Shown here: in pieces, positions 5,559 through 64,000 of the stretch | Numbering within the stretch: the stretch's first letter is position 1 | Layout: each line of letters starts with the position of its first letter | IMG/VR virus record: IMGVR_UViG_3300031227_000023 | Location: 1 to 64,000 of that record | Origin: a virus | DNA: 64,000 bases | Reading direction: 5' to 3' (one strand) | Translations under genes and position numbers: made by a program | Notes under the pieces: model-generated | Told to the model about the DNA's origin: nothing | The model's input: the letters and a program-made list of their open reading frames with translations, nothing else | Databases searched by the model: none

Positions 5559-8087
5559 TTATTCACTTTCCACCTCGTCATCCGTAGATTTGGGCCCGAA
5601 ATATGCCATCAGTTCCCTTGTGCTCTGGCGCATACTCTCTACTTCCTCATCACTACCAACCCAGTCTTTGGATTCATCGTCTTTGCTGTCTTCTTTTGTT
5701 TCTGGATCATCCGTCAAGGTGTCGAAAATGCTCGCCTGATCTCCACTCGTTGACGCCTCTTGAAGATTGATACACGCACGGTCAAAATACGAATCCTTCA
5801 ATTCGATTCCAACAAACCGCCTTCCTTGCTTCAATGCCCCGTACCCTTCGGAACCGATCCCAGCGAACGGGGAGAAAACCAAGTCATTCTCGTTTGTCCA
5901 CATGTGAACCGCCCGCTCGATCACGTCGAGTTGCAACGGACACACATGCTTCTCGTCTTTCTCATCCCGTCCGAGTGCTCTGTTCAACACGTTACCCTGC
6001 CTGATGTCCATCCACACCGGACTCGCGTACCGTTGCCACACCTTGATGCTGTACCCGCGCTTGTCCATGAGTCGGCGTGGCACATCGTCATCCTCGACCA
6101 GTTGCGTATCAAATCCGATGCTGTGCTTGCGAGTTTCGACTGCGGAGTGCTTACTCGGCTCATCTTCTCCAACATAATGATCGAACCTTGCCGTATTGGA
6201 TTCGCCACACACGGGGGACACCACTTCGGCGCATCCGTCCAAGTCATCACGCTTACGGAAAACCACGAGGTGATCAGGGTTGCCTTGCCTGCTAATTGTT
6301 GAATCCTTGCACACCTGCTTATGGAGCAACCCGATTGTTTTTGTCCGTTGCATCTCGACAACCGGGTCTTTCCAGATAACAACCTCGGAATGGAACACAA
6401 ACCCGGCATCCCCGAATGCGCGGATAATGTCACCGCGAAAATCATACAGCCCTGTGAATCCCGTCTTGTACTTGAACAGCGGGATATTGATACAATGCAC
6501 AGCGACCAATCGGCCCGGACGGGTGACGCGCAAGAGTTCTGGAATCAGCATAGAGAAGTGCTCGAAGAACTTCTCATCGCTGGCGCTGTTCCCCATGTCC
6601 CTTGCGCTGTTGCTGTACACGTACAACTGGGAGAACGGCGGGGAAAAGATCGTGAAGTCAACCGAGTTATCCACGACCTTCTTTGTTTCCTCGATGCAGT
6701 CCCCTTTTATCATCTCCCACCCGTTGCCGGTGATAGTCTGCTGATCATAATCCAAGGCCAATCCCCTTTCTCCTGTGATTCCAAATTGGAAGTTTTCGTA
6801 CATACTGCGGCCCATCTCGTCATGCTTCGCGGCCTTGACCATTACGTTGTCGTATATCTGTTGTTCGGCCTCTGACATCACTGTATGGACGTGAACCTCA
6901 TGCTCTTGACCAAACCGCCAGTTACGGCGAACGGCTTGGTAATACGCCTCATACGAGTATGACATCCCGATGAAAGCGGCTTGATGACAGTGCTGCCAGT
7001 TCATGCCGAACCCAGCTATTTTGGGCTTTGTTATGAGCACCCGGAATTCACCGGCAACGAACCCCATCAACTTGGATTCTTTGATGTCCGGCCTGTCGTT
7101 TCCACGCACCTCGACAGCCTCTGGTATTGCCAACCGCAGCTCGTCGGCCTCGTAATTTGTATGGCACCACACCACCCACGATCCCGTTGAATCGTTAACG
7201 ATCCTTGCAACCTCTTGTGCCCTTGACGGAGCGGTCACTCGCATCACCTTGTGCACGGTTGTCGCTGATGCTGTCGGGCTGTAAAACATCTCGCCAATCT
7301 CAGAACCTAACGCTTCATAGTCGGCGCGAATGACGTGACGGTGCTGATGGAGTTTGGGCAAAACAAACCCATCGTCGGAGTGCCCAAGGTCGGAAGGCTG
7401 GCGAATGCACACCGCCCAACTGGAAACCCATGACCAAAACGGCTGCACCGCGTGGTGTTTGATTCTCCACACCGATGTCTGCCCGCTGTCATGTAAAAAC
7501 CACCGTGAGAGCATTTCGGTTCTGGGCATGATGCCAAGGAAATCGCTATGGTTCCCGAGTTCAACGTGATCGTTCGGCGCAGGCGTGGCCGTGCAACAAA
7601 GACGGAACGGAGTTTGATCAAAATAATCACAGAGCAACTGTTTTGTTTTGCCCATAAATGACTTCAGGATGCTCGATTCGTCGAGGACAACACCACCGAA
7701 CACGGACGGATCAAACTTCTCGATGCGCTCATAGTTTGTGATGTTGATCCCGGCCACAACTTCACTTCCATCACGAACCACTGAGCATTCGATTCCGAAC
7801 TTCTCGCCCTCGCGCTTCGTCTGTTGACTGACGGCCAGCGGTGCTAGGATCAAAACAGGCATCCCAGTGTATTCAACAACATGGCGAGCCCACTCAAGTT
7901 GCACAGGCGTCTTGCCAAGCCCACACTCCGCAAAAATCGCACACCGCCCCAACTTCAATGCCCACTGAACAATATCAACCTGGAACGGAAATAACATCTT
8001 GTTGATGCCATTCCTTTCAACATGGAATCCACTATCTTCCATGCGTTCCATTTTGTTCACCAAAAAATCTAAATACTTTTTGCCCAT
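5559..8087 (-). CDS. SNF2-type helicase fused to DNA methyltransferase, 842 aa
   Basis: The N-terminal half (about 30-430) is a superfamily-2 helicase: Walker A AECGLGKT (53-60), DEAD-like box LDESS, motif III CTATPAPND, and motif VI YYQAVRRNWRFGQ near 382-394. The C-terminal half (about 455-770) is a beta-class amino-methyltransferase: catalytic FSPPF (481-485) precedes the SAM-binding FSPFAGIGSEGYGAL (from 738), the order that defines the beta class. The acidic tail is disordered. The fusion suggests a DNA-translocating or remodelling methyltransferase that could protect phage DNA from restriction; the target base is unknown. ATG 8087 has a GGGGTGG site; ATG 8120 is an alternative. Codon choice looks different from the neighbours, suggesting recent acquisition. 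Confidence 0.85.
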   Translation of the reverse strand: MGKKYLDFLVNKMERMEDSGFHVERNGINKMLFPFQVDIVQWALKLGRCAIFAECGLGKTPVQLEWARHVVEYTGMPVLILAPLAVSQQTKREGEKFGIECSVVRDGSEVVAGINITNYERIEKFDPSVFGGVVLDESSILKSFMGKTKQLLCDYFDQTPFRLCCTATPAPNDHVELGNHSDFLGIMPRTEMLSRWFLHDSGQTSVWRIKHHAVQPFWSWVSSWAVCIRQPSDLGHSDDGFVLPKLHQHRHVIRADYEALGSEIGEMFYSPTASATTVHKVMRVTAPSRAQEVARIVNDSTGSWVVWCHTNYEADELRLAIPEAVEVRGNDRPDIKESKLMGFVAGEFRVLITKPKIAGFGMNWQHCHQAAFIGMSYSYEAYYQAVRRNWRFGQEHEVHVHTVMSEAEQQIYDNVMVKAAKHDEMGRSMYENFQFGITGERGLALDYDQQTITGNGWEMIKGDCIEETKKVVDNSVDFTIFSPPFSQLYVYSNSARDMGNSASDEKFFEHFSMLIPELLRVTRPGRLVAVHCINIPLFKYKTGFTGLYDFRGDIIRAFGDAGFVFHSEVVIWKDPVVEMQRTKTIGLLHKQVCKDSTISRQGNPDHLVVFRKRDDLDGCAEVVSPVCGESNTARFDHYVGEDEPSKHSAVETRKHSIGFDTQLVEDDDVPRRLMDKRGYSIKVWQRYASPVWMDIRQGNVLNRALGRDEKDEKHVCPLQLDVIERAVHMWTNENDLVFSPFAGIGSEGYGALKQGRRFVGIELKDSYFDRACINLQEASTSGDQASIFDTLTDDPETKEDSKDDESKDWVGSDEEVESMRQSTRELMAYFGPKSTDDEVESE

Positions 8088-8109
8088 CAAACCACCCCGT
8101 TTTTCAAAA

Positions 8110-8694
8110 TCAATCTTCATCCAGCGGCAACTCCTCTTGACCAATAGCAGGCATCGTGTCCCACCGTTTCAAGATCAGTTTCACGTCACCGGCCTTGGCC
8201 TTGCCCTGTTGAATCTTCTTGACCAACGCTGCCAACTCCTCATGCGCACCCGCAGGCACCAACGCAGGGTCAACCGTTGGCGTCCATTCTGCAATCAGGG
8301 CTTCCAAAAACTGCCCGGCCCAATCACTCTTCAGGCCATGCATGTGCTTGAACGTCTTGGCAGCGAAGTCAAACATCGGCTTGAAATCTTCAGGAACGTT
8401 CAGAGAGATTGTGACATACCCCTCTTTTTTCCCCTTAGCACCATCGGCAATTCCGCCTTCAACCCCGGTGGTTGGTGGCCACATCGCATCAGCAAAAAGC
8501 TGCTTCTGCATCCCTGCTTCCACAGCAATTTCAGCCACGCCCGCGTTCCGAATCTTCATCGTGTTGTCACAGCCTTCAGCCGCACAGCCATACAGCATGG
8601 TTCCACCCGCTGTTTTCCTGTACTCGAACACCATGCTGCCGCACCGGCACACTGGCATTTTACCAACAACAGTTTCCACTTTCTTTTTCGGCAT
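8110..8694 (-). CDS. Zinc-ribbon protein of unknown function, 194 aa
   Basis: The N-terminus carries a probable zinc ribbon: PVCRCGSMVF, then MLYGCAAEGCDNTMKI, giving a C-x-C...C-x4-C set within 35 residues. The rest is helical with charged segments (EDFKPMFDFAAKTFKHMHGLKSDWAGQFLEALIAEW) and an acidic end (EELPLDED). It lies between the primase-helicase and the helicase-methyltransferase in the replication operon, so a role with DNA or RNA is plausible. I cannot assign a family. The ATG has an AAGGAAGGAACG site. Confidence 0.7.
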   Translation of the reverse strand: MPKKKVETVVGKMPVCRCGSMVFEYRKTAGGTMLYGCAAEGCDNTMKIRNAGVAEIAVEAGMQKQLFADAMWPPTTGVEGGIADGAKGKKEGYVTISLNVPEDFKPMFDFAAKTFKHMHGLKSDWAGQFLEALIAEWTPTVDPALVPAGAHEELAALVKKIQQGKAKAGDVKLILKRWDTMPAIGQEELPLDED

Positions 8695-13362: not shown

Positions 13363-14568
13363 TTATTTCTTGAACGCACCCGCTTCAATCTCAGGGGCAC
13401 CGATCTGCCCACCTTCACGCTTCACGTACAACGCCTGATCTTCAGACGCATCCAAAAAACAAGCAGCCCTGAACGGACACACCCGACTTGGCGTATTGCA
13501 TGCGCTGCGGTTCCGTGCCCACCGTTCCTGCTTCATCTGCATACTCTGACTGATCAACCGGGAACACTGCCACAGATCGGCCATGGCTTCGGCCTGCTGC
13601 TGTTCCGACACGTACAGTTCATGCCGGAACATAAAGCTGTCACCACGTGCCGCCAACCGTTCATATTCTTCCCGGTACGTTTCCCACACCATCCGTGCGC
13701 CCGGATTTTCGATTGCAGCTTGCAACTGTTCAAACTGCGCCTTGTAGATATCCGGGGTGGTGTCGCACCTGCGCCGCGTCATGTGGCCTGCCGGTGATTT
13801 CAATGCAGCAGGCATGCTCGGTTCCTTGCTGCATAGCACGTTGTACAGCACGCCATGCACGCCGCCTTCAAGCGAAGCAGCCAAAGGGTGAACCTTCCCG
13901 CGCAAATAGTTCGCCGCGTACATGTACGCCCGTGGCTGTGTCGCATATTTCAGTTCTGACTCAAACTGTGGACGCTGCCGGGATGAAGTTGTTTTGTGCT
14001 CAAGCAACAGCACACGCCCGTCTTGCCGATCACGCACCAGCCCGTCAACCTTGCACACGTAATGCCACAGGCTGCTTGCATAGCCGGATGGTGTCACCAC
14101 AGGAATCCGTATGGGATGTTCCACGGCAAGTATTTCATACCGGTCTTGATCACTGGCAAGGTTCTTTTTGATGTACCGTTCAAGCACCCTGACTGCCTTG
14201 CCTGCAATCTCTTCAGCCTTAACCTGCGCTTCTTCCCCGGCCTGAATGTCTGCCGGGTCATTGCTGTTGCCGTATCGCTTATCGATCTGCTGCCCACGTT
14301 CCCCCAACCACGCATTCACCACATCGTGTGTCATCACCAAACTTGCAGTCACCAATTCTGCCCCGCCAATCACAGACCTGCCATCGACAACCGGCCTGCC
14401 CATCATGTTGGAATAAACGCTATCAAGGCACCGGTGGACAAGCGTACCGAAAGACAACGCCACGCCCTTCACACGCGGCTCCAGCCCTTCCACAACACTG
14501 ATTCTGTACCGTTCCGGACAAGTCAGAAACGTTCCCCCACTGCTACTGCTTAACTGCTGCTGTTTCAT
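13363..14568 (-). CDS. PD-(D/E)XK exonuclease, RecB/Cas4-like, 401 aa
   Basis: Begins LSSSSGGTFLTCPERYRI, the conserved entry of the PDDEXK_1 (RecB/Cas4-like) family, followed by FGTLVHRCLDSVY. The nuclease core has KVDGLVRDRQDGRVLLLEHKTTS (catalytic Asp, Glu and Lys as D...E-x-K) and then QPRAYMYAA. A C-terminal CNTPSRVCPFRAAC cluster, together with the early Cys, recalls the iron-sulfur staple of Cas4/AddB nucleases. It probably resects double-strand ends to supply single strands to the Sak4-like annealase. ATG 14568 has the site GGGGTGCAGA and overlaps the XRE-type gene by 26 bases. Confidence 0.82.
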   Translation of the reverse strand: MKQQQLSSSSGGTFLTCPERYRISVVEGLEPRVKGVALSFGTLVHRCLDSVYSNMMGRPVVDGRSVIGGAELVTASLVMTHDVVNAWLGERGQQIDKRYGNSNDPADIQAGEEAQVKAEEIAGKAVRVLERYIKKNLASDQDRYEILAVEHPIRIPVVTPSGYASSLWHYVCKVDGLVRDRQDGRVLLLEHKTTSSRQRPQFESELKYATQPRAYMYAANYLRGKVHPLAASLEGGVHGVLYNVLCSKEPSMPAALKSPAGHMTRRRCDTTPDIYKAQFEQLQAAIENPGARMVWETYREEYERLAARGDSFMFRHELYVSEQQQAEAMADLWQCSRLISQSMQMKQERWARNRSACNTPSRVCPFRAACFLDASEDQALYVKREGGQIGAPEIEAGAFKK

Positions 14569-14887
14569 TCTGCACCCCTGCTGTTGATTGTTCACCGCAC
14601 CCATCGTTCATGTTCGATTCATCACCGTGCCCGCACAGCCACAGAAAGTTCACACCAAGCACTTCACCTGCCCGATGAAGCATGCCAACACCAGGATTCT
14701 TGCCCTGTGTCAACGTGGTAAAAAACCGTTCCTGCAACCCGTTGCTGCGAGCAATTTTCGCTGCGCTGTTCAGGCCATCACCACGACTTGTTCGATGCGC
14801 CAACGCAACACGCACCCGCAGCCGGAACTTGTCAATCCACCATGCCGGTGGTTCAATCGAGCCTTCCTGCTTCACTTCTTCTGCCAT
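14543..14887 (-). CDS. XRE-type HTH regulator, 114 aa
   Basis: A Cro/CI-type helix-turn-helix is visible at about 40-75 (SAAKIARSNGLQERFFTTLTQGKNPGVGMLHRAGEVLGV), preceded by WWIDKFRLRVRVALAHR. It is too short for a CI repressor with a dimerisation/cleavage domain, so it is more like Cro or an early-operon regulator. It is the first gene of the replication operon and lies beside the regulatory region with two 14-base palindromes, its likely operators. ATG 14887 has an AAGGAGCAAGACCG site. Confidence 0.75.
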   Translation of the reverse strand: MAEEVKQEGSIEPPAWWIDKFRLRVRVALAHRTSRGDGLNSAAKIARSNGLQERFFTTLTQGKNPGVGMLHRAGEVLGVNFLWLCGHGDESNMNDGCGEQSTAGVQNETAAVKQ

Positions 14888-15225
14888 CGGTCTTGCTCCT
14901 TTTCTGCTAACCATCCAAATCAACAAACACAGACACCATGCATGTTACTGGTTTCTATTGCAACATATATTTTACTTTTTCTTCACAGTGCATACAACAA
15001 ACACTTTTGCAAATCGAACGAAACAAAAACTTGCCTGCCGCAATCCCGCATTTCTCACCGCCGCTTTTTTTCATTCATTTTTTTTCTGCTTTTCATTCCC
15101 TTTTCTTTTCTACCAACACTCTTCTGTTCTTTATTTTGGATAGTGTAATATTTTCCGGCCTATATATTATAATTAGCTAAGTAGCTTTCTTTGTACTACT
15201 TTCTTTAAGGTTTTGAGAGCGCCGA

Positions 15226-15270
15226 TTGCATGCACAAAAAACAGGCACTTGCATGCACAAAAAACAGGCA
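15226..15270. repeat. Tandem 22-base direct repeat, two copies
   Basis: TTGCATGCACAAAAAACAGGCA occurs at 15226-15247 and again, identical, at 15249-15270, giving a 23-base period. Each copy contains the palindrome TGCATGCA and ends in ACAGGCA, the same left half as the palindrome at 15392. Two in-phase copies in an A/T-rich intergenic region suggest binding sites for an initiator or regulator (iteron-like). Confidence 0.8.
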
Positions 15271-15391
15271 CCCTTGTCTTGGTGGCAAACTAAAGCAAGC
15301 AATCACACCAACTTGAAAACATACTACCAGGAACGCATTTGAACATTTACGGAAGTTTGTTTTGGACGTAACAGAAAACTTTTACCAAAAC

Positions 15392-15405
15392 AGGCAGGGT
15401 TGCCT
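15392..15405. promoter_or_regulatory. Operator-like palindrome 1
   Basis: AGGCA-GGGT-TGCCT: 5-base arms around a 4-base spacer. The matching site at 15442 has the same arms, and centre-to-centre spacing is exactly 50 bp, about five helical turns, placing both on one face of the DNA. A likely target of the XRE-type regulator coded at 14543-14887. Confidence 0.6.
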
Positions 15406-15441
15406 ATCGAAATCTGCACAAAAATTAGGCAATTTACACCA

Positions 15442-15455
15442 AGGCAAGGTTGCCT
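15442..15455. promoter_or_regulatory. Operator-like palindrome 2
   Basis: AGGCA-AGGT-TGCCT, differing from the first palindrome only at one spacer base. A possible half-site, TAGGCAATTT, lies between the two. Confidence 0.6.
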
Positions 15456-15599
15456 CCCCCCTCAGAAAGCAGATTATGCACGTCTTGCACATGCTGAAAA
15501 CCACACCCTTCCAGCACCCCACCGGAGCAATACGCACCCGGCAAAAGCATCACCAATGGCCACAGCCCTGCCTTCCCGCCACGTGCAGCATGCAATCGA

Positions 15600-57163: not shown

Positions 57164-59776
57164 CTATTCCACAGGCACCCGGTACGAAGTGCCACCAATG
57201 CTGAAAGCGTTCAGATGTCCATCATCAATAAGTTCCCACAAAGTGCCATCAACTTCAGCCCGAACCAACCAAGTACCTGCCTTGATCGTTCTGCCTGCAA
57301 TTTCCAAGTCAGTTGGTGCCAAGTAGCTTTCAAGCACTTGCGCTTCACCAACCGCCCGGCCCTCATGGTAAACTTTAAAATGTCTGTAATCCCGCAGCCA
57401 GTTCCAAGCAGCACGCTGAATTTCTTCTGCACTGACCACATCACCCTGCCTGTCAGGGTCTACTTCATCACCATCACCCCCGTTGTTGGGGATCATGACA
57501 ACGCCAAGCACATGGTGCCGGTCATCTGCAATGCCATCAGCTTTGCTCAAATGAACGTTCAACTGATTGCTGTCTGCAACTGGATTGGGCTTGTCAAGGA
57601 TCGGTGCTACAGATCCACTGTAAGGGCACCCATTTTCAGTGTCAACATTTCCACGCCCAAATCCCAAACCTTTTGCAACCGCTTCCACCCGTTCATACTG
57701 CCCACCCACCATCAAAAGGTTTTCGTTTTGGAACCATCCGGCCTTCACCAAACCATCACGCATCCCACGCGCCGCTTCACCACCGGCCTGCCAATACCGC
57801 AAATGTTCAGGCACACACTTTTCCAACGCTTCAGGCAGCCAACTGATTCCATCGGGCGGCATCAGACCCTTGGCCACAGCACGATCAGACAGCACAGCAG
57901 GCAACAGCTTGCCACGGAAGCACTGCCACCCTTCATCACCCTTCCAAGTGAACACCAACCGGCCACCCGCATCACCTTCCAAAAAGTATTCATGGAATCC
58001 TTCACGCTGCACGCCGAATTCAACAGCCACGTCTGCAAGATCCACTGACTTGTCAACCGCTTCCGGTATGACCTGCACCGCTGCTGATCGGTGTGACTTG
58101 AACAGCCCGGTTGGCAGCACGCTGCTTTCCCATCCATCTTCAACCTTGCCAGCCGGAACAGCCCACCCGATCTGATCAACACCCACTGTGGTGGTGAAAC
58201 CATAGAACAAATCTTTGCCAATCGCATGCACCACCACCTTTCCGGGCTTGGCACCAAACGGCACGCGCATAAATGCGTCATGGTCTTTGGCAACGCTATG
58301 AACCGCAGCCTGCACCGCAGGCGTCAACACCAAATCGTATGCACCACGCACAAGCCCGGCCCTGTCTTCCCCACCACCAACGGCAGCCGGAAGTTCATGG
58401 TGATCCTTCAGCAGCCGGGCAAGGGCATCAGCCGCAGGCCGGGTGAACCCGTCACCCTTGACCACGAACAGCAACCCATCATCATCAGCTTCGATCTGTA
58501 CGGCATTGGGCTGAACAAGAAACGCCCCATCCAACTTCACCTGCCCAAGATTATCCAACCCCTTCTGCACCTGCTGTGCAGCATCCTGTATTGCTTTTTC
58601 AACACCGGAAACGGCAGCCTTGCCAACCCTGGATTTTTGCCTGCCTGACAAGGAAAAAACGGCAGCCCGTTCATCGTGGCACTTGACACACGCGAACGGA
58701 CCTAATCCAAACAAGGCTGCCGGTTCCACTGTGCCGGGATCATCCAAACCACCCGACTTCAGCAACCGGGAAACAACACGGTTCACATCATACGTTTCTG
58801 CAAATTCATCCACTGCTGCTGCAAGCCCATCACCATACTTGCGCACGGCAACCACAGCACGTGCCCGATCAGCCGCACCGGAACTGACCAACCCTGTGTC
58901 AATGGCACGGATGCTTGCACTGCCATCGGGGGAATCAAAATCAAGCGTGCCCAACCCATCATCCACATAATAATCATCGGGTGGAACGCCCAACCGGCTA
59001 ATCTGCCGAATCACCGCCACGGCATCACCATCACCGCGAACCCGCAGCACATCACCGGCAATACTCTTGACATCAAAGCCCTGTTCAATCAGCAAATCGT
59101 AAACTTCGTTTGGATCAACCCGCAACGTGGTTGTGATGTAAACAGATTTGCCGTCTTCCCCCGGCATAATCATGGAAACATCAGACAACGGAAGTTCACC
59201 CGCTTCAAGCCCTGAACTATCCTGCAACCCACGGATTTGTTCAGCCTTCCACCGGGCTTCCCGCACGGCATTGCGGGCTTGATCAATCTCCTTCGGTCCA
59301 CCTGTTCGATCCGCACGCCTGACAAGCTGCGCTGCATTTGACAACTGCCGCTGCGCCTGCGCCAAATCTTCGTTGGTGTGCTTGGTATCACCCGGCACGA
59401 ACCGGTCGGTGATGGAAGGCATTTCTTCACTCAGGAACTTCACGCGATTTTCCAACGCAACCTGCGTTTGTACCATCCGGCTGTGCTTATCATGCGCCCG
59501 ATCATCAACAGACTTGGCTTGGCGAAACTCTGCCCATGCAGAATCATACACGGCAGCGTCAACCCCGTTCGGCACTGCACGCATTTTCTCTTCTGCTTGT
59601 TGCCGCAACGCTGTAGTTTGCCGCACTTCGCCCTGCTGATCACGGACCTTGTTGCCGTATTCACGAACATCAGCCTGCTTGGGGTTGGGATTGCCAAGCG
59701 GGCCAAGGAACCTGCCCCATTCATCACGTTCACTGTAATAAGCTGGATCAGATTTCTTGACTATATGCTTGGCCAT
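57164..59776 (-). CDS. XkdF-type prohead protease with long N-terminal extension, 870 aa
   Basis: C-terminal 130 residues (HHVLGVVMIPNNGGDGDEVDPDRQGDVVSAEEIQRAAWNWLRDYRHFKVYHEGRAVGEAQVLESYLAPTD...IKAGTWLVRAEVDGTLWELIDDGHLNAFSIGGTS) match the XkdF serine-protease domain: His in KVYHEG, Ser in VLESYL and the FSIGG end. The first 740 residues have no recognised family: coiled-coil at 40-190, then an alpha/beta stretch, a lone CVKC pair near 365 and a second domain (WESSVLPTGLFKSHRSAAVQVIPEAVDKSVDLADV). XkdF proteins are usually about 300 residues. The extension may be an internal virion or ejected protein released by the protease. Confidence 0.72.
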   Translation of the reverse strand: MAKHIVKKSDPAYYSERDEWGRFLGPLGNPNPKQADVREYGNKVRDQQGEVRQTTALRQQAEEKMRAVPNGVDAAVYDSAWAEFRQAKSVDDRAHDKHSRMVQTQVALENRVKFLSEEMPSITDRFVPGDTKHTNEDLAQAQRQLSNAAQLVRRADRTGGPKEIDQARNAVREARWKAEQIRGLQDSSGLEAGELPLSDVSMIMPGEDGKSVYITTTLRVDPNEVYDLLIEQGFDVKSIAGDVLRVRGDGDAVAVIRQISRLGVPPDDYYVDDGLGTLDFDSPDGSASIRAIDTGLVSSGAADRARAVVAVRKYGDGLAAAVDEFAETYDVNRVVSRLLKSGGLDDPGTVEPAALFGLGPFACVKCHDERAAVFSLSGRQKSRVGKAAVSGVEKAIQDAAQQVQKGLDNLGQVKLDGAFLVQPNAVQIEADDDGLLFVVKGDGFTRPAADALARLLKDHHELPAAVGGGEDRAGLVRGAYDLVLTPAVQAAVHSVAKDHDAFMRVPFGAKPGKVVVHAIGKDLFYGFTTTVGVDQIGWAVPAGKVEDGWESSVLPTGLFKSHRSAAVQVIPEAVDKSVDLADVAVEFGVQREGFHEYFLEGDAGGRLVFTWKGDEGWQCFRGKLLPAVLSDRAVAKGLMPPDGISWLPEALEKCVPEHLRYWQAGGEAARGMRDGLVKAGWFQNENLLMVGGQYERVEAVAKGLGFGRGNVDTENGCPYSGSVAPILDKPNPVADSNQLNVHLSKADGIADDRHHVLGVVMIPNNGGDGDEVDPDRQGDVVSAEEIQRAAWNWLRDYRHFKVYHEGRAVGEAQVLESYLAPTDLEIAGRTIKAGTWLVRAEVDGTLWELIDDGHLNAFSIGGTSYRVPVE

Positions 59777-59827
59777 TGTTCCCATCCCACTGTTGGTTCA
59801 ATTCATCCCCCGGCTTGCAGGCTGCAA

Positions 59828-60931: not shown

Positions 60932-61291
60932 TTATTCGACCCGTTCGAAATCCCACCCAAGTTCATCTTCAAGAATTGCAGGATGCACGCCAACCCCGTA
61001 GTACTCCATGTACCACCCATTGGTCACAACCACAAGATGCGCCAACGATGCAGCAACCACATCAGGATCTTCAACCATCGAAAATGGAACCTGATCTTGT
61101 GTGCCAATCGGTGGGTCTGCATCAATCACATCCTTCACCTGCACCGCAATCGTTTCCCCGCCTTCCACAATGACATCATCCCCTTCAACGTAGAAAAAGA
61201 CAGCCGTGCTGCCATCAATTTCAACCTGCCAATATTCACCCTGTGGCACCCCGCCTGAATGTTCCCTGAATTCAATCTTGACCTTTGCCAT
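60932..61291 (-). CDS. Unknown head-region protein, 119 aa
   Basis: Beta-rich acidic protein (VKIEFREHSGGVPQGEYWQVEIDGSTAVFFYVEGDDVIVEGGETIAVQVKDVID). It could be a small barrel that associates with the capsid or portal. No recognised family. The start follows GGAAGACCA. Confidence 0.55.
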   Translation of the reverse strand: MAKVKIEFREHSGGVPQGEYWQVEIDGSTAVFFYVEGDDVIVEGGETIAVQVKDVIDADPPIGTQDQVPFSMVEDPDVVAASLAHLVVVTNGWYMEYYGVGVHPAILEDELGWDFERVE

Positions 61292-61300
61292 TGGTCTTCC

Positions 61301-64000
61301 TTACTTGTACGCGCCGGTGTTAATTGATCCCAGCACACGCGTGAAATGGTCAACGTCTTGCATCACCTTCCCCGCAGACTTCCCATCAAAATATTCCATG
61401 CCCATGGATGTCACTTCTGTTGCATCCAAATCCTTCACGCTTCCACCACGTGGCGTTTTCACAGTCCCTTCCCTGTAATACAACCTACCAACATAGTGGT
61501 CTGTGAATTCAGGATTACCCCGTTCGACTTTCACAACAATTTCATTCAACTTATATGCTTTGTTTCTTGTCAAATAACGCAGCGGGGTTTCCCCTCCTAC
61601 AAATCCATCAGCATCTACTTTGGCGCGCTGCCACAGGAACCACTGCCCATTCTTCAGTGAATCAGAATTGAGTTCATCAAAATGATGTCCATATTCGTGC
61701 AGGAACTTGCGCCGTACTTCTTCCTTTGACCACTCCGCATATTTCCGAACACGCACGTTTTTTGTTCCAATTGAAATAAACGCACGTTCATCAACCCCCT
61801 GGCTTGCTATTGATTTTGCAGACTCATAGAACGCCCCGCTTTTTGTTGGATCAACATCAACCCTGACAGCAGGCAACCGGCCACGAACAACACCACGACC
61901 GTACCGCGTCACATAATCATAAATCGCACACCCTTCTTCAATCCCATCACGAACAGGCTTTGGAATTTTTGACCATTGTGCATAAGCCCCGGCATCATCC
62001 AAAAACTGTGCTTTGATCCTGCCAAACAGCCGGGCTTGTTCAGGTATCGTTTCAACATACGCAAGGGATTTTTCTGCAATCTCACCAGCAACCTTGTGGT
62101 GCGCGACACTATCTAGTGCAAGAGTTCCGGAGGATTCCTTTCTAATCAAATCCTTCAATACCCACTCCCCACGCTTTCTGATCTGATCCACCCTGCCACT
62201 TTTCCTTGCCGACCCCCAACGCGCATCAACAGCCGGTGGCCTTGTACTTGACAACGGGCCAAGCACTTCATCACCACGCAAGCCTTCTTCAGGAACCAAC
62301 TGCCATGGCTGTTCATGCGGCTTCAACGGTGCAGGTACAGCAGGCTTGGGCACAGCAGCGGCAGTCCTGGCAGCAGCCGCACCCCCTGCCCATGGACCCA
62401 ACCCACCGGGCACCGCAGTCTGTATGGCCTTCTGATTGTAAATAACAGTGGTCCTGCATAGCGGGTGGTACGGTGGCAAACTCATGCCCAAATCACGCAT
62501 TTCCTTCACGGTGGAATACTGCGAAGCATACTTGCCCGCATCCCATGTTCCCGCACCCGGCTTTGTGACAGTCATGATACTGTTGAACTGCCCCTGTTTA
62601 TTCATCACCCCCCAGTCAGCACCCCGCCTGCGCACCCATGGCATTTCAAATTTAATATCTTCAGGATCAGCCAAGTTGTCAGTTGACGTTTGGTGTTCAT
62701 GCGCAACCTCAACATCTATTACTTTACCATGGATGTACCGGCAATTATGAACAACAACCCCTTCTGCAATGTATGTTGGGTCATCTTCCACTTCAAGGTT
62801 GTACACGTAACATGCACGCCGCACCTTGCGAACGGCAACAACCTTTTCTAGCCTAGTGCCCCTGCAATACTCTTCAACACTACGTTCTCCGGATTCCCTT
62901 GATTCAATTGCTCGCCCGTAATCCTGATCAGTTTCCACCCCATGCCTGCAATTGCTTGTTCTTTTCTTTCCGTCGCATCCTCCCTGAACCCTTCCCTGTG
63001 CCAATACTCCCCGTCCACCTCGATTGCGAGACCGTGCTCCGGTAGAAAGAAATCTACATTGAATCGGTCGACGGGCTTCTCTAGCTCGTAATTGATTCGA
63101 TTCTTTTCCAACACTTCCGCAACGATTTCTTCCAACCCCGTTGCCCCCTTCCCAATCAAAAGGCATCTGCGCGAACAATGCTGCCTCTTGACCACTTCCG
63201 ATTTCTTGATAACAAACTTTTTCCCGCACTCCTCGCACGTTATCGTTTCCCTTTGATCCTTCCACCGGCATGCCCGTGAACACGTAGTGCGGGTTTTCCC
63301 GGAAAAAAATTCCACTGGCTTTATTCTGAACTCCCCCCCACATACAACGCACCGCTTCACCAACAATGCCGGATTCAACCCCTTCCTTCCAGCTTCCACC
63401 CTGCACTGATCCGAACAATGCTTCATCTGCCCCCGTTTCACATAACACTGCCTTGCCGTGAATGCCTTGCCGCACCATTGACAAACCATTTCCACATTGT
63501 TCATCCGATATTTGTTGTAACAATCCGTGCCGCAATACTGAGCCCTGTTCCCCACCGCTTGAAACGTCTTTCCGCAACCCTTGCATTTCTTCTCTATAGA
63601 CAAGGCTGTCTCCTTTCCGCAATTCTCCAATAGGTCTCCATCCATCTGCGGTAAGGATACGATGTTTTTTTGTTGCAATCAAATGATTGCCGGACTGGAG
63701 TTGCACTTCAATCAACTCTTCATCAACAAATCTTTTCGATACAGCCAACACGTGCCTCAACACCCCTGATCCCGTCACGACAACATCACCCGCATCAATG
63801 CTGTCTATACGTTTTTCCCCTAACTCTGTTTTTACTTTTGTTTCGCCAGAAAAACACCATTCTGTGGTTCGTTCATCCATCACCGCATAGGCAATTACCT
63901 CTGTAATGCCCGCTTCCATGAAGCCGTGCAACTGCGCCCGTGAACGGGAACGCGCAACCAAGTTGTGCGCCACCACCGTCCAATAATTCTTCATCTGCTG
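61301..64000 (-). CDS. Minor head protein (Mu F/SPP1 gp7 type) with intein and zincin domain, partial
   Basis: The gene runs off the right edge. Extein core: ...YAVMDERTTEWC | CRYIHGKVIDVEVAH...PPYHPLCRTTVIYN, the D-x-RT-x3-C...HG and HP-x-CR landmarks of the SPP1 gp7/Mu F family. The intein interrupts just before the conserved Cys at the DERTTEW/CRYIHG junction. After the head domain (about residue 570) a second domain has FLHEYGHHFDEL (766-770) and later EVTSMGMEYF, an HExxH zinc-protease motif with a possible third ligand Glu. A protease on an ejected head protein could digest host targets after entry. The spliced protein would lack the 371 intein residues. Confidence 0.78.
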   Translation of the reverse strand, partial: QQMKNYWTVVAHNLVARSRSRAQLHGFMEAGITEVIAYAVMDERTTEWCFSGETKVKTELGEKRIDSIDAGDVVVTGSGVLRHVLAVSKRFVDEELIEVQLQSGNHLIATKKHRILTADGWRPIGELRKGDSLVYREEMQGLRKDVSSGGEQGSVLRHGLLQQISDEQCGNGLSMVRQGIHGKAVLCETGADEALFGSVQGGSWKEGVESGIVGEAVRCMWGGVQNKASGIFFRENPHYVFTGMPVEGSKGNDNVRGVREKVCYQEIGSGQEAALFAQMPFDWEGGNGVGRNRCGSVGKESNQLRAREARRPIQCRFLSTGARSRNRGGRGVLAQGRVQGGCDGKKRTSNCRHGVETDQDYGRAIESRESGERSVEEYCRGTRLEKVVAVRKVRRACYVYNLEVEDDPTYIAEGVVVHNCRYIHGKVIDVEVAHEHQTSTDNLADPEDIKFEMPWVRRRGADWGVMNKQGQFNSIMTVTKPGAGTWDAGKYASQYSTVKEMRDLGMSLPPYHPLCRTTVIYNQKAIQTAVPGGLGPWAGGAAAARTAAAVPKPAVPAPLKPHEQPWQLVPEEGLRGDEVLGPLSSTRPPAVDARWGSARKSGRVDQIRKRGEWVLKDLIRKESSGTLALDSVAHHKVAGEIAEKSLAYVETIPEQARLFGRIKAQFLDDAGAYAQWSKIPKPVRDGIEEGCAIYDYVTRYGRGVVRGRLPAVRVDVDPTKSGAFYESAKSIASQGVDERAFISIGTKNVRVRKYAEWSKEEVRRKFLHEYGHHFDELNSDSLKNGQWFLWQRAKVDADGFVGGETPLRYLTRNKAYKLNEIVVKVERGNPEFTDHYVGRLYYREGTVKTPRGGSVKDLDATEVTSMGMEYFDGKSAGKVMQDVDHFTRVLGSINTGAYK
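62744..63856 (-). other. Intein, 371 codons, inserted in minor head gene
   Basis: Starts at Cys (TGT 63854-63856) with CFSGETKVKTELGEKRIDSIDAGD (block A). Next is SGNHLIATKKHRILTADGWRPIGEL (block B, T-x-x-H type) near residue 102. It ends with ACYVYNLEVEDDPTYIAEGVVVHN (blocks F/G) before extein Cys. Splicing residues are Cys1, His in the B block, terminal His-Asn and +1 Cys, so all core residues are present. The N part covers about 90 residues and the C part about 35. The 250 residues between have the low-complexity look of a shadow frame yet contain no stop, because they overlie the endonuclease gene. Confidence 0.88.
62848..63603 (-). CDS. Nested homing endonuclease in the intein, +1 frame, 251 aa
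   Basis: Runs in the +1 frame relative to the intein. Start TTG 63603 has a perfect AAAGGAG (63610-63616) six bases upstream; the frame stays open further upstream to ATG 63645 and 63678, but those have poor sites. Four zinc-finger-like CxxC...C-x3-4-C units fill residues 5-140 (CKGCGKTF...CGTDCYN; CQWCGKAF...CSDQC; CVVCGGEF...CSRAC; CEECGKKF...CSRRC). The C-terminal domain has NVDFFLPEHGLAIEVDGEYWH...ATERKEQAIAGMGWKLIRI, close to the EDxHD/Vsr-like nuclease fold. It would cut intein-free alleles of the head gene, allowing the intein to spread. It fits exactly between the two splicing halves and stops at 62848. Confidence 0.82.
   Translation of the reverse strand: MSIEKKCKGCGKTFQAVGNRAQYCGTDCYNKYRMNNVEMVCQWCGKAFTARQCYVKRGQMKHCSDQCRVEAGRKGLNPALLVKRCVVCGGEFRIKPVEFFSGKTRTTCSRACRWKDQRETITCEECGKKFVIKKSEVVKRQHCSRRCLLIGKGATGLEEIVAEVLEKNRINYELEKPVDRFNVDFFLPEHGLAIEVDGEYWHREGFREDATERKEQAIAGMGWKLIRITGEQLNQGNPENVVLKSIAGALG

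Follow-up and report, generated by a model that had tools for sequence, protein, structure and literature searches.

Organization of the minor head protein gene

The DNA considered here, referred to as the window, is a stretch of 64,000 nucleotides corresponding to bases 1-64000 of the 89,915-base virus record IMGVR_UViG_3300031227_000023 (the parent record). At its end, on the minus strand, lies an open reading frame (ORF) for a minor head protein of the gp7/Mu F type (61301-64906 of the parent record; 1201 aa from the ATG, 1210 aa for the open frame). The N-extein (63857-64000, continuing outside the window as far as about 64906 of the record) ends with DERTTEW. It is weakly matched by TIGR01641 (phageSPP1_gp7) over residues 4-47 (E 0.0092); the match ends at residue 47 because the intein described below cuts off the gp7 domain. 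The C-extein (61301-62743) carries the remaining gp7/Mu F domain (from CRYIHGKV to PPYHPLCRT), a linker and a C-terminal domain resembling zincin metallopeptidases. Between the two exteins, the ORF contains an intein of about 371 aa (62744-63856), with which an endonuclease gene overlaps; the first-pass annotation of this DNA had missed both. In the following, comparison loci are designated by L-numbers.

A class 1 intein with an overprinted endonuclease gene

The insertion is bounded by the junctions DERTTEW/C...HN/CRYIHGKV and matches the intein families Intein_splicing (5.5e-12) and Hint_2 (9.4e-9) of Pfam, as well as TIGR01443 (5.4e-8) of NCBIfam. It has a Cys at position 1, the TxxH of block B, a C-terminal His-Asn, a Cys at position +1 and the N- and C-splicing blocks, all invariant in nine aligned inteins. 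By sequence, it is therefore a class 1 intein, and it would be expected to splice. Its best solved relatives are the mini-inteins derived from Mtu RecA (PI-MtuI; PDB profile search, 3.6e-15). Their alignment is confined to profile positions 1-96 and 347-375, that is, to the first 96 and the last 29 positions, and for the remainder of the intein they offer no equivalent.

Read in the +1 frame, the middle of the intein encodes a protein with zinc ribbons and a Vsr/EDxHD nuclease domain of the I-Bth0305I type. This homing endonuclease gene (HEG) would extend over 62848-63603 on the minus strand, from a TTG start, and code for 251 aa; the stop-to-stop frame opens at 63678. Its product matches DUF559 (2.4e-6, above the cut-off of that family), MTES_1575 (4.3e-8) and phrog_1271 (5.4e-18), and its best solved relative by profile is PDB entry 3r3p (2.9e-11). 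Residues E183, D209, E220, D222 and H227 are invariant, the catalytic and zinc residues being kept. Ten distinct gp7 loci, nine full and one truncated (L161), have this nuclease in a common phase, within an intein that occupies a single site of the head protein.

No long second frame was found in about 50 nuclease relatives outside the gp7 intein family. Elsewhere, the same nuclease family occurs within an in-frame intein (L021), beside an IntN segment with IntC in another frame (L012/L079), or as free-standing genes. At L079 (3729-5799, on a contig shared with L012), a stop closes the frame of IntN and its in-frame nuclease, and IntC is read in another frame beyond it, an arrangement corresponding to either a split intein or a frameshift in a phage gene. 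Microcystis phage MaeS (L162, 2995-3789) was set aside as a nested case: there, a related nuclease sits between fragments of the tape-measure gene, probably in an intron. Intein matches in Gordonia, Salmonella, Caulobacter, Erwinia and scaffold_972 (L168) did not contain an overprinted HEG.

Selection keeps both frames open

Whether the two frames have been maintained together can be read from the wobble positions of the HEG, since an HEG codon ending with T before AA, AG or GA would create a stop in the intein frame. In the nine full gp7 members, whose kinship makes the counts non-independent, such a T occurs at 0 of 513 possible sites, as compared to 336 of 1363 harmless contexts. The same test on 13 free-standing HEGs gave equal rates (341/949 versus 751/2178), with no sign of avoidance.

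Among the gp7 members, identity to the window ranges from 26 to 62% in the intein frame and from 37 to 75% in the HEG. Between the window and its closest relative, L066, 44, 46 and 98 differences are found at HEG codon positions 1, 2 and 3, respectively, and the codon changes in the intein frame comprise 24 synonymous and 120 nonsynonymous ones. Because the changes concentrate at HEG wobble positions, this pattern of divergence indicates that constraint on the HEG bears on its protein product, and that the intein linker has chiefly to remain free of stops.

A putative start site within the splicing domain

A Shine-Dalgarno (SD) sequence, AAGGAG (63610-63615, minus strand), is located 6 nt 5' of the TTG, within the intein codons for R-K-G-D. 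AAGGAG-6-TTG is found in the window, L066, L067 and L073, AAGGAGG-5-TTG in L072, and GGAG-6-TTG in L071 and L074. The start is thus conserved in seven gp7 loci, with the SD motif overlying the K-G-D codons of the Hint domain. Two mini-inteins devoid of HEG have, at the same site, a GGC glycine codon and no SD. This conservation in full loci, together with the absence of the SD from the HEG-less forms, supports internal initiation of the HEG at the TTG.

Three states at one site, and a second family in TerL

A single site of the gp7 gene is found in three allelic states: with the full intein (ten loci), with a HEG-less mini-intein (L153, L157) and empty (L142, with a site of the form DERTTETC/RYLDG). 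A comparable arrangement occurs in TerL, the terminase large subunit, where nine inteins are overprinted in the +2 frame by an HNH_3 endonuclease gene (L165/L170, L171, L172, L173, L175, L178, L179, L167 from Rhodobacteraceae phage LS06-2018-MD07, and L197 from Tetrasphaera phage TJE1). In TJE1, the intein spans 14510-15463 of HQ225832 and the HEG starts from about 14773; the terL annotation names the large terminase only. Synonymous reshuffling of eight TerL members gave 19.1 expected stops in the intein frame versus 0 observed. With free-standing relatives, 91 stops were observed and 90 expected. The nuclease, the frame and the host gene all differ between the gp7 and TerL families, which argues for separate origins of the two sets of overprinted inteins.

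The zincin-like domain of the head protein

The C-terminal domain of the head protein (core at 61304-61750) is where the first-pass annotation had noticed an HExxH motif and proposed a zinc metalloprotease. HEYGH is indeed encoded at 61699-61685 on the minus strand (...AAG TTC CTG CAC GAA TAT GGA CAT CAT TTT GAT GAA CTC...), at the C-terminus of the gp7/Mu F-type protein. It is followed by DATEVTSMGMEYF, including YVGRLY and then ATEVTSMG, whose Glu (61417-61415) is the candidate third ligand, and by a C-terminal helix with DxDHF. In domain numbering, the candidate metal site would be formed by H145, E146, H149 and E239.

Searches with the C-terminus alone gave no match in Pfam, chance-level matches only in PHROGs, and no match in a direct search of viral contigs. 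Weak tblastn matches to large Vibrio phage proteins (best E 0.03) aligned precisely at HE[YVF]GH, Y[VT]G[RK]xY and ATE[VI]xSMG. Relatives were gathered through these matches, phage P1 DdrB being reached by tblastn from one of the Vibrio phage proteins, and a profile built from them brought in further phage proteins. HE[Y/F/M/V/L]GH, Y[V/T]G[R/K]xY and [A]TE[V/I]xSMG occur in the same order in unrelated phage proteins. Furthermore, a hidden Markov model (HMM) built from eight phage zincins, the window protein and its nearest relatives being left out, recovers the window protein (E=2e-22), P1 DdrB (2.2e-27) and L008 (2e-4). The recurrence of the ordered motifs and the leave-out HMM place the zincin motif beyond chance, so that the initial proposal of a zincin-like domain is sustained at the sequence level. 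In twelve aligned zincin sequences, the candidate third-ligand Glu is the sole invariant column. Since the HMM finds both the window protein and P1 DdrB and this column is invariant, the domain is, as far as profiles can tell, a zincin-like peptidase domain of the DdrB type. In a PDB profile search with the zincin, matches were at chance level only and no solved structure was significant.

That the domain is absent from standard gp7/Mu F proteins had also been claimed, and this agrees with the comparisons: it is an extension of the head protein, and L066 stops before it. More generally, the C-terminus of this head protein is variable, present or absent among close homologues. Fusion to other phage head proteins, a check suggested at the outset, was found as well, the same tail occurring on the gp7/Mu F-type proteins of L142 (where the PF04233 match, 7e-4, is below the cut-off) and L146. 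A portal-adjacent protein of Streptococcus phage 315.3 also carries a domain of this family (leave-out HMM, 1.5e-27). In L145 (3-6483), five consecutive ORFs each contain a zincin of the DdrB-type family.

Tails of this kind are already known. P1 DdrB is processed before packaging, probably by its own peptidase domain (PMC5512222), and metallopeptidase domains represent 20% of 191 putative MuF toxins (PMC5576092). The window protein shares with these metallopeptidases (MPTases), the DdrB type of which belongs to polyvalent proteins, the HExxH and downstream Glu, the context of a virion protein and profile homology. It differs from them in that the peptidase here is carried at the end of a gp7 head protein, from which an intein has to be removed first.

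Neighbouring genes

Close to the end of most zincin genes, at no more than about 20 nt from it, a gene of 75-124 aa begins. Examples are found in the window (60932-61291, minus strand, 119 aa, directly 3' of the zincin), in P1, in Vibrio and Streptococcus phages, and in L138, L142-L146, L068, L072 and L073. Small genes at or near the end of the zincin gene were also noticed in L147 and L148. An automatic count found a following small gene for 8 of 13 zincin genes versus 20 of 100 other large genes of the same loci, and the small gene is absent in five zincin-less relatives of the head protein. The position is conserved and the sequence is not: leave-one-out profiles looking for common ancestry of the small proteins recovered none, and they are therefore not claimed as one family. 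The 119-aa protein is a candidate dedicated partner (inhibitor, immunity protein or chaperone); such a neighbour fits an effector/immunity pair and equally a pair of a protease with its chaperone or partner.

Further along the window, an 873-aa protein (57164-59785) has a long N-terminal extension and a C-terminus of the XkdF/S78 prohead protease type (E 1.4e-19). A DNA methyltransferase fused to a helicase-like protein is encoded at 5559-8144. Beyond the window, at about 77472-83710 of the parent record (L003, 3473-9711), genes resembling type IV CRISPR effectors match Csf2/Cas7 (5e-42), Csf3/Cas5 (1.7e-29) and Csf1/Cas8 (7e-6); two PAPS-reductase (CysH-like) genes and one ParB-like gene are found among them.

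Possible mechanisms

Very probably, one gene codes here for a minor head protein with a DdrB-type zincin and is parasitised by an intein carrying an overprinted HEG. From the sequences, we infer splicing, internal initiation and homing as follows. The ribosome would read the whole head-protein ORF in a single frame. The two halves of the Hint domain (intein residues 1-96 and 340-371, approximately) would then excise the intein and rejoin DERTTEW to CRYIHG, thereby completing the head protein; the linker of about 250 codons between them would need only to remain stop-free in the intein frame. Ribosomes starting in the +1 frame from the internal AAGGAG-6-TTG, on the codons for K-G-D-S-L-V of the intein, would produce the separate 251-aa zinc-ribbon/EDxHD endonuclease. 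Cleavage of the empty gp7 site would be the expected task of this enzyme, leading to the intein being copied in.

Production of the endonuclease could be envisaged in another way, as an IntN-HEG fusion made by +1 frameshifting. The HEG is in the required frame, and several members have an SD-like sequence 5' of a CTT, resembling the geometry of prfB. However, the slip codon is variable (CTT or GTT), the site has no in-frame stop, and six loci have the standard spacing of 6 nt to the TTG, with 5 nt in L072, which makes frameshifting an unlikely route. It may also be asked whether the HEG frame is a real gene at all. HEGs often decay, and in the related L012/L079 IntC is in a frame different from that of IntN-HEG. 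That it is a relic of decay or frameshifting, or a sequencing error, is nevertheless very improbable in view of the ten loci sharing one phase with both frames open; the invariant catalytic and zinc residues, the absence of stop-making T in the wobble test and the bias of changes toward HEG wobble positions rule out a frameshift artefact. Internal initiation from an overprinted gene remains the preferred reading, and several observations weigh against one part or another of the overall scheme. The SD-TTG motif is weak in L068 and missing in L070 and L161. The TerL family is mostly without SD, so that initiation there must work differently. In the relatives L006 and L072, the HExxH is degenerate at the same position, with the downstream Glu kept, which weighs on the predicted peptidase activity. 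Finally, gp7 and TerL family members are nearly all metagenomic contigs, TJE1 being the sole documented isolate.

As for the zincin, it would most likely be active within the virion or from it, its first targets being the head protein to which it belongs or neighbouring ones. One possibility, somewhat less likely than not, is a protease trimming the minor head protein, or other head proteins, during maturation, following the precedent of DdrB (PMC5512222), whose domain family it shares according to the leave-out HMM. Against this, a separate prohead protease is encoded at 57164-59785, and head maturation therefore does not need the zincin. Alternatively, as in a MuF polymorphic toxin, the zincin may be an injected effector, as the first-pass annotation had suggested, entering with the DNA to cleave a host protein, the 119-aa gene providing immunity. 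Metallopeptidase MuF toxins have been described (PMC5576092), and sequence-diverse small genes follow most zincin genes and are missing in the five zincin-less relatives. Yet P1 DdrB, the homologue known best, probably processes itself (PMC5512222), and genes resembling the partner are also found after degenerate zincins (L068, L072), so that we hold an injected effector as possible rather than probable. By analogy with DdrB, self-processing would be at least as likely as the injected effector.

Relation to known mobile elements

Mobile inteins are usually viewed as one polypeptide with the endonuclease folded in, as two pieces, or as endonuclease-free mini-inteins. Full-length mobile inteins resemble the present ones by their Hint splicing halves with an endonuclease between; in theirs it is an in-frame domain, whereas here it lies outside the intein polypeptide, and the frame used is +1 in gp7 and +2 in TerL. 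Fractured genes with split inteins, in which the gene is split and an endonuclease of the I-Bth0305I type lies between IntN and IntC, were reportedly described by Dassa in 2009 (cited in PMC3229294). The endonuclease (PDB 3r3p) is related and its position similar, but in the present case the host ORF is unbroken and remains open across the HEG. The closest published case, the ShiLan domain, an out-of-frame HNH endonuclease hidden in an insertion of a phage methylase without detectable intein or intron (PMC11855218), also has a mobile endonuclease gene in the second frame of an insertion that is stop-free in the host frame. In contrast to ShiLan, where no self-splicing element surrounds the HEG, a complete Hint intein flanks it here, the HEG belongs to another family and its start has an SD. 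No published intein with an out-of-frame HEG was found in the literature, the coverage of which excludes Dassa 2009 and a preprint on actinobacteriophage inteins of 'non-canonical architecture' (10.1101/2025.01.02.630785), either of which may bear on novelty.

Conclusion

It is likely that inteins with overprinted endonucleases represent a distinct and recurrent mobile-intein architecture, evolved at least twice (EDxHD in the +1 frame in gp7, HNH in the +2 frame in TerL), in which two proteins would be obtained from one stretch of DNA and, in gp7, the ribosome binding site of the enzyme would be built into conserved Hint codons. Here, the endonuclease would be a protein in its own right, its gene overprinting the intein linker, and the selection that holds both frames open can be measured. 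Such an organization shows how a HEG could invade a splicing element, or shift out of frame within it, without breaking an essential gene. It also offers a natural case of long dual coding, one that standard annotation overlooks. For its part, the zincin would bring a head protein into the DdrB family of peptidases, together with a neighbour gene that recurs. Through the isolated phage TJE1, the overprinted-intein architecture becomes testable.
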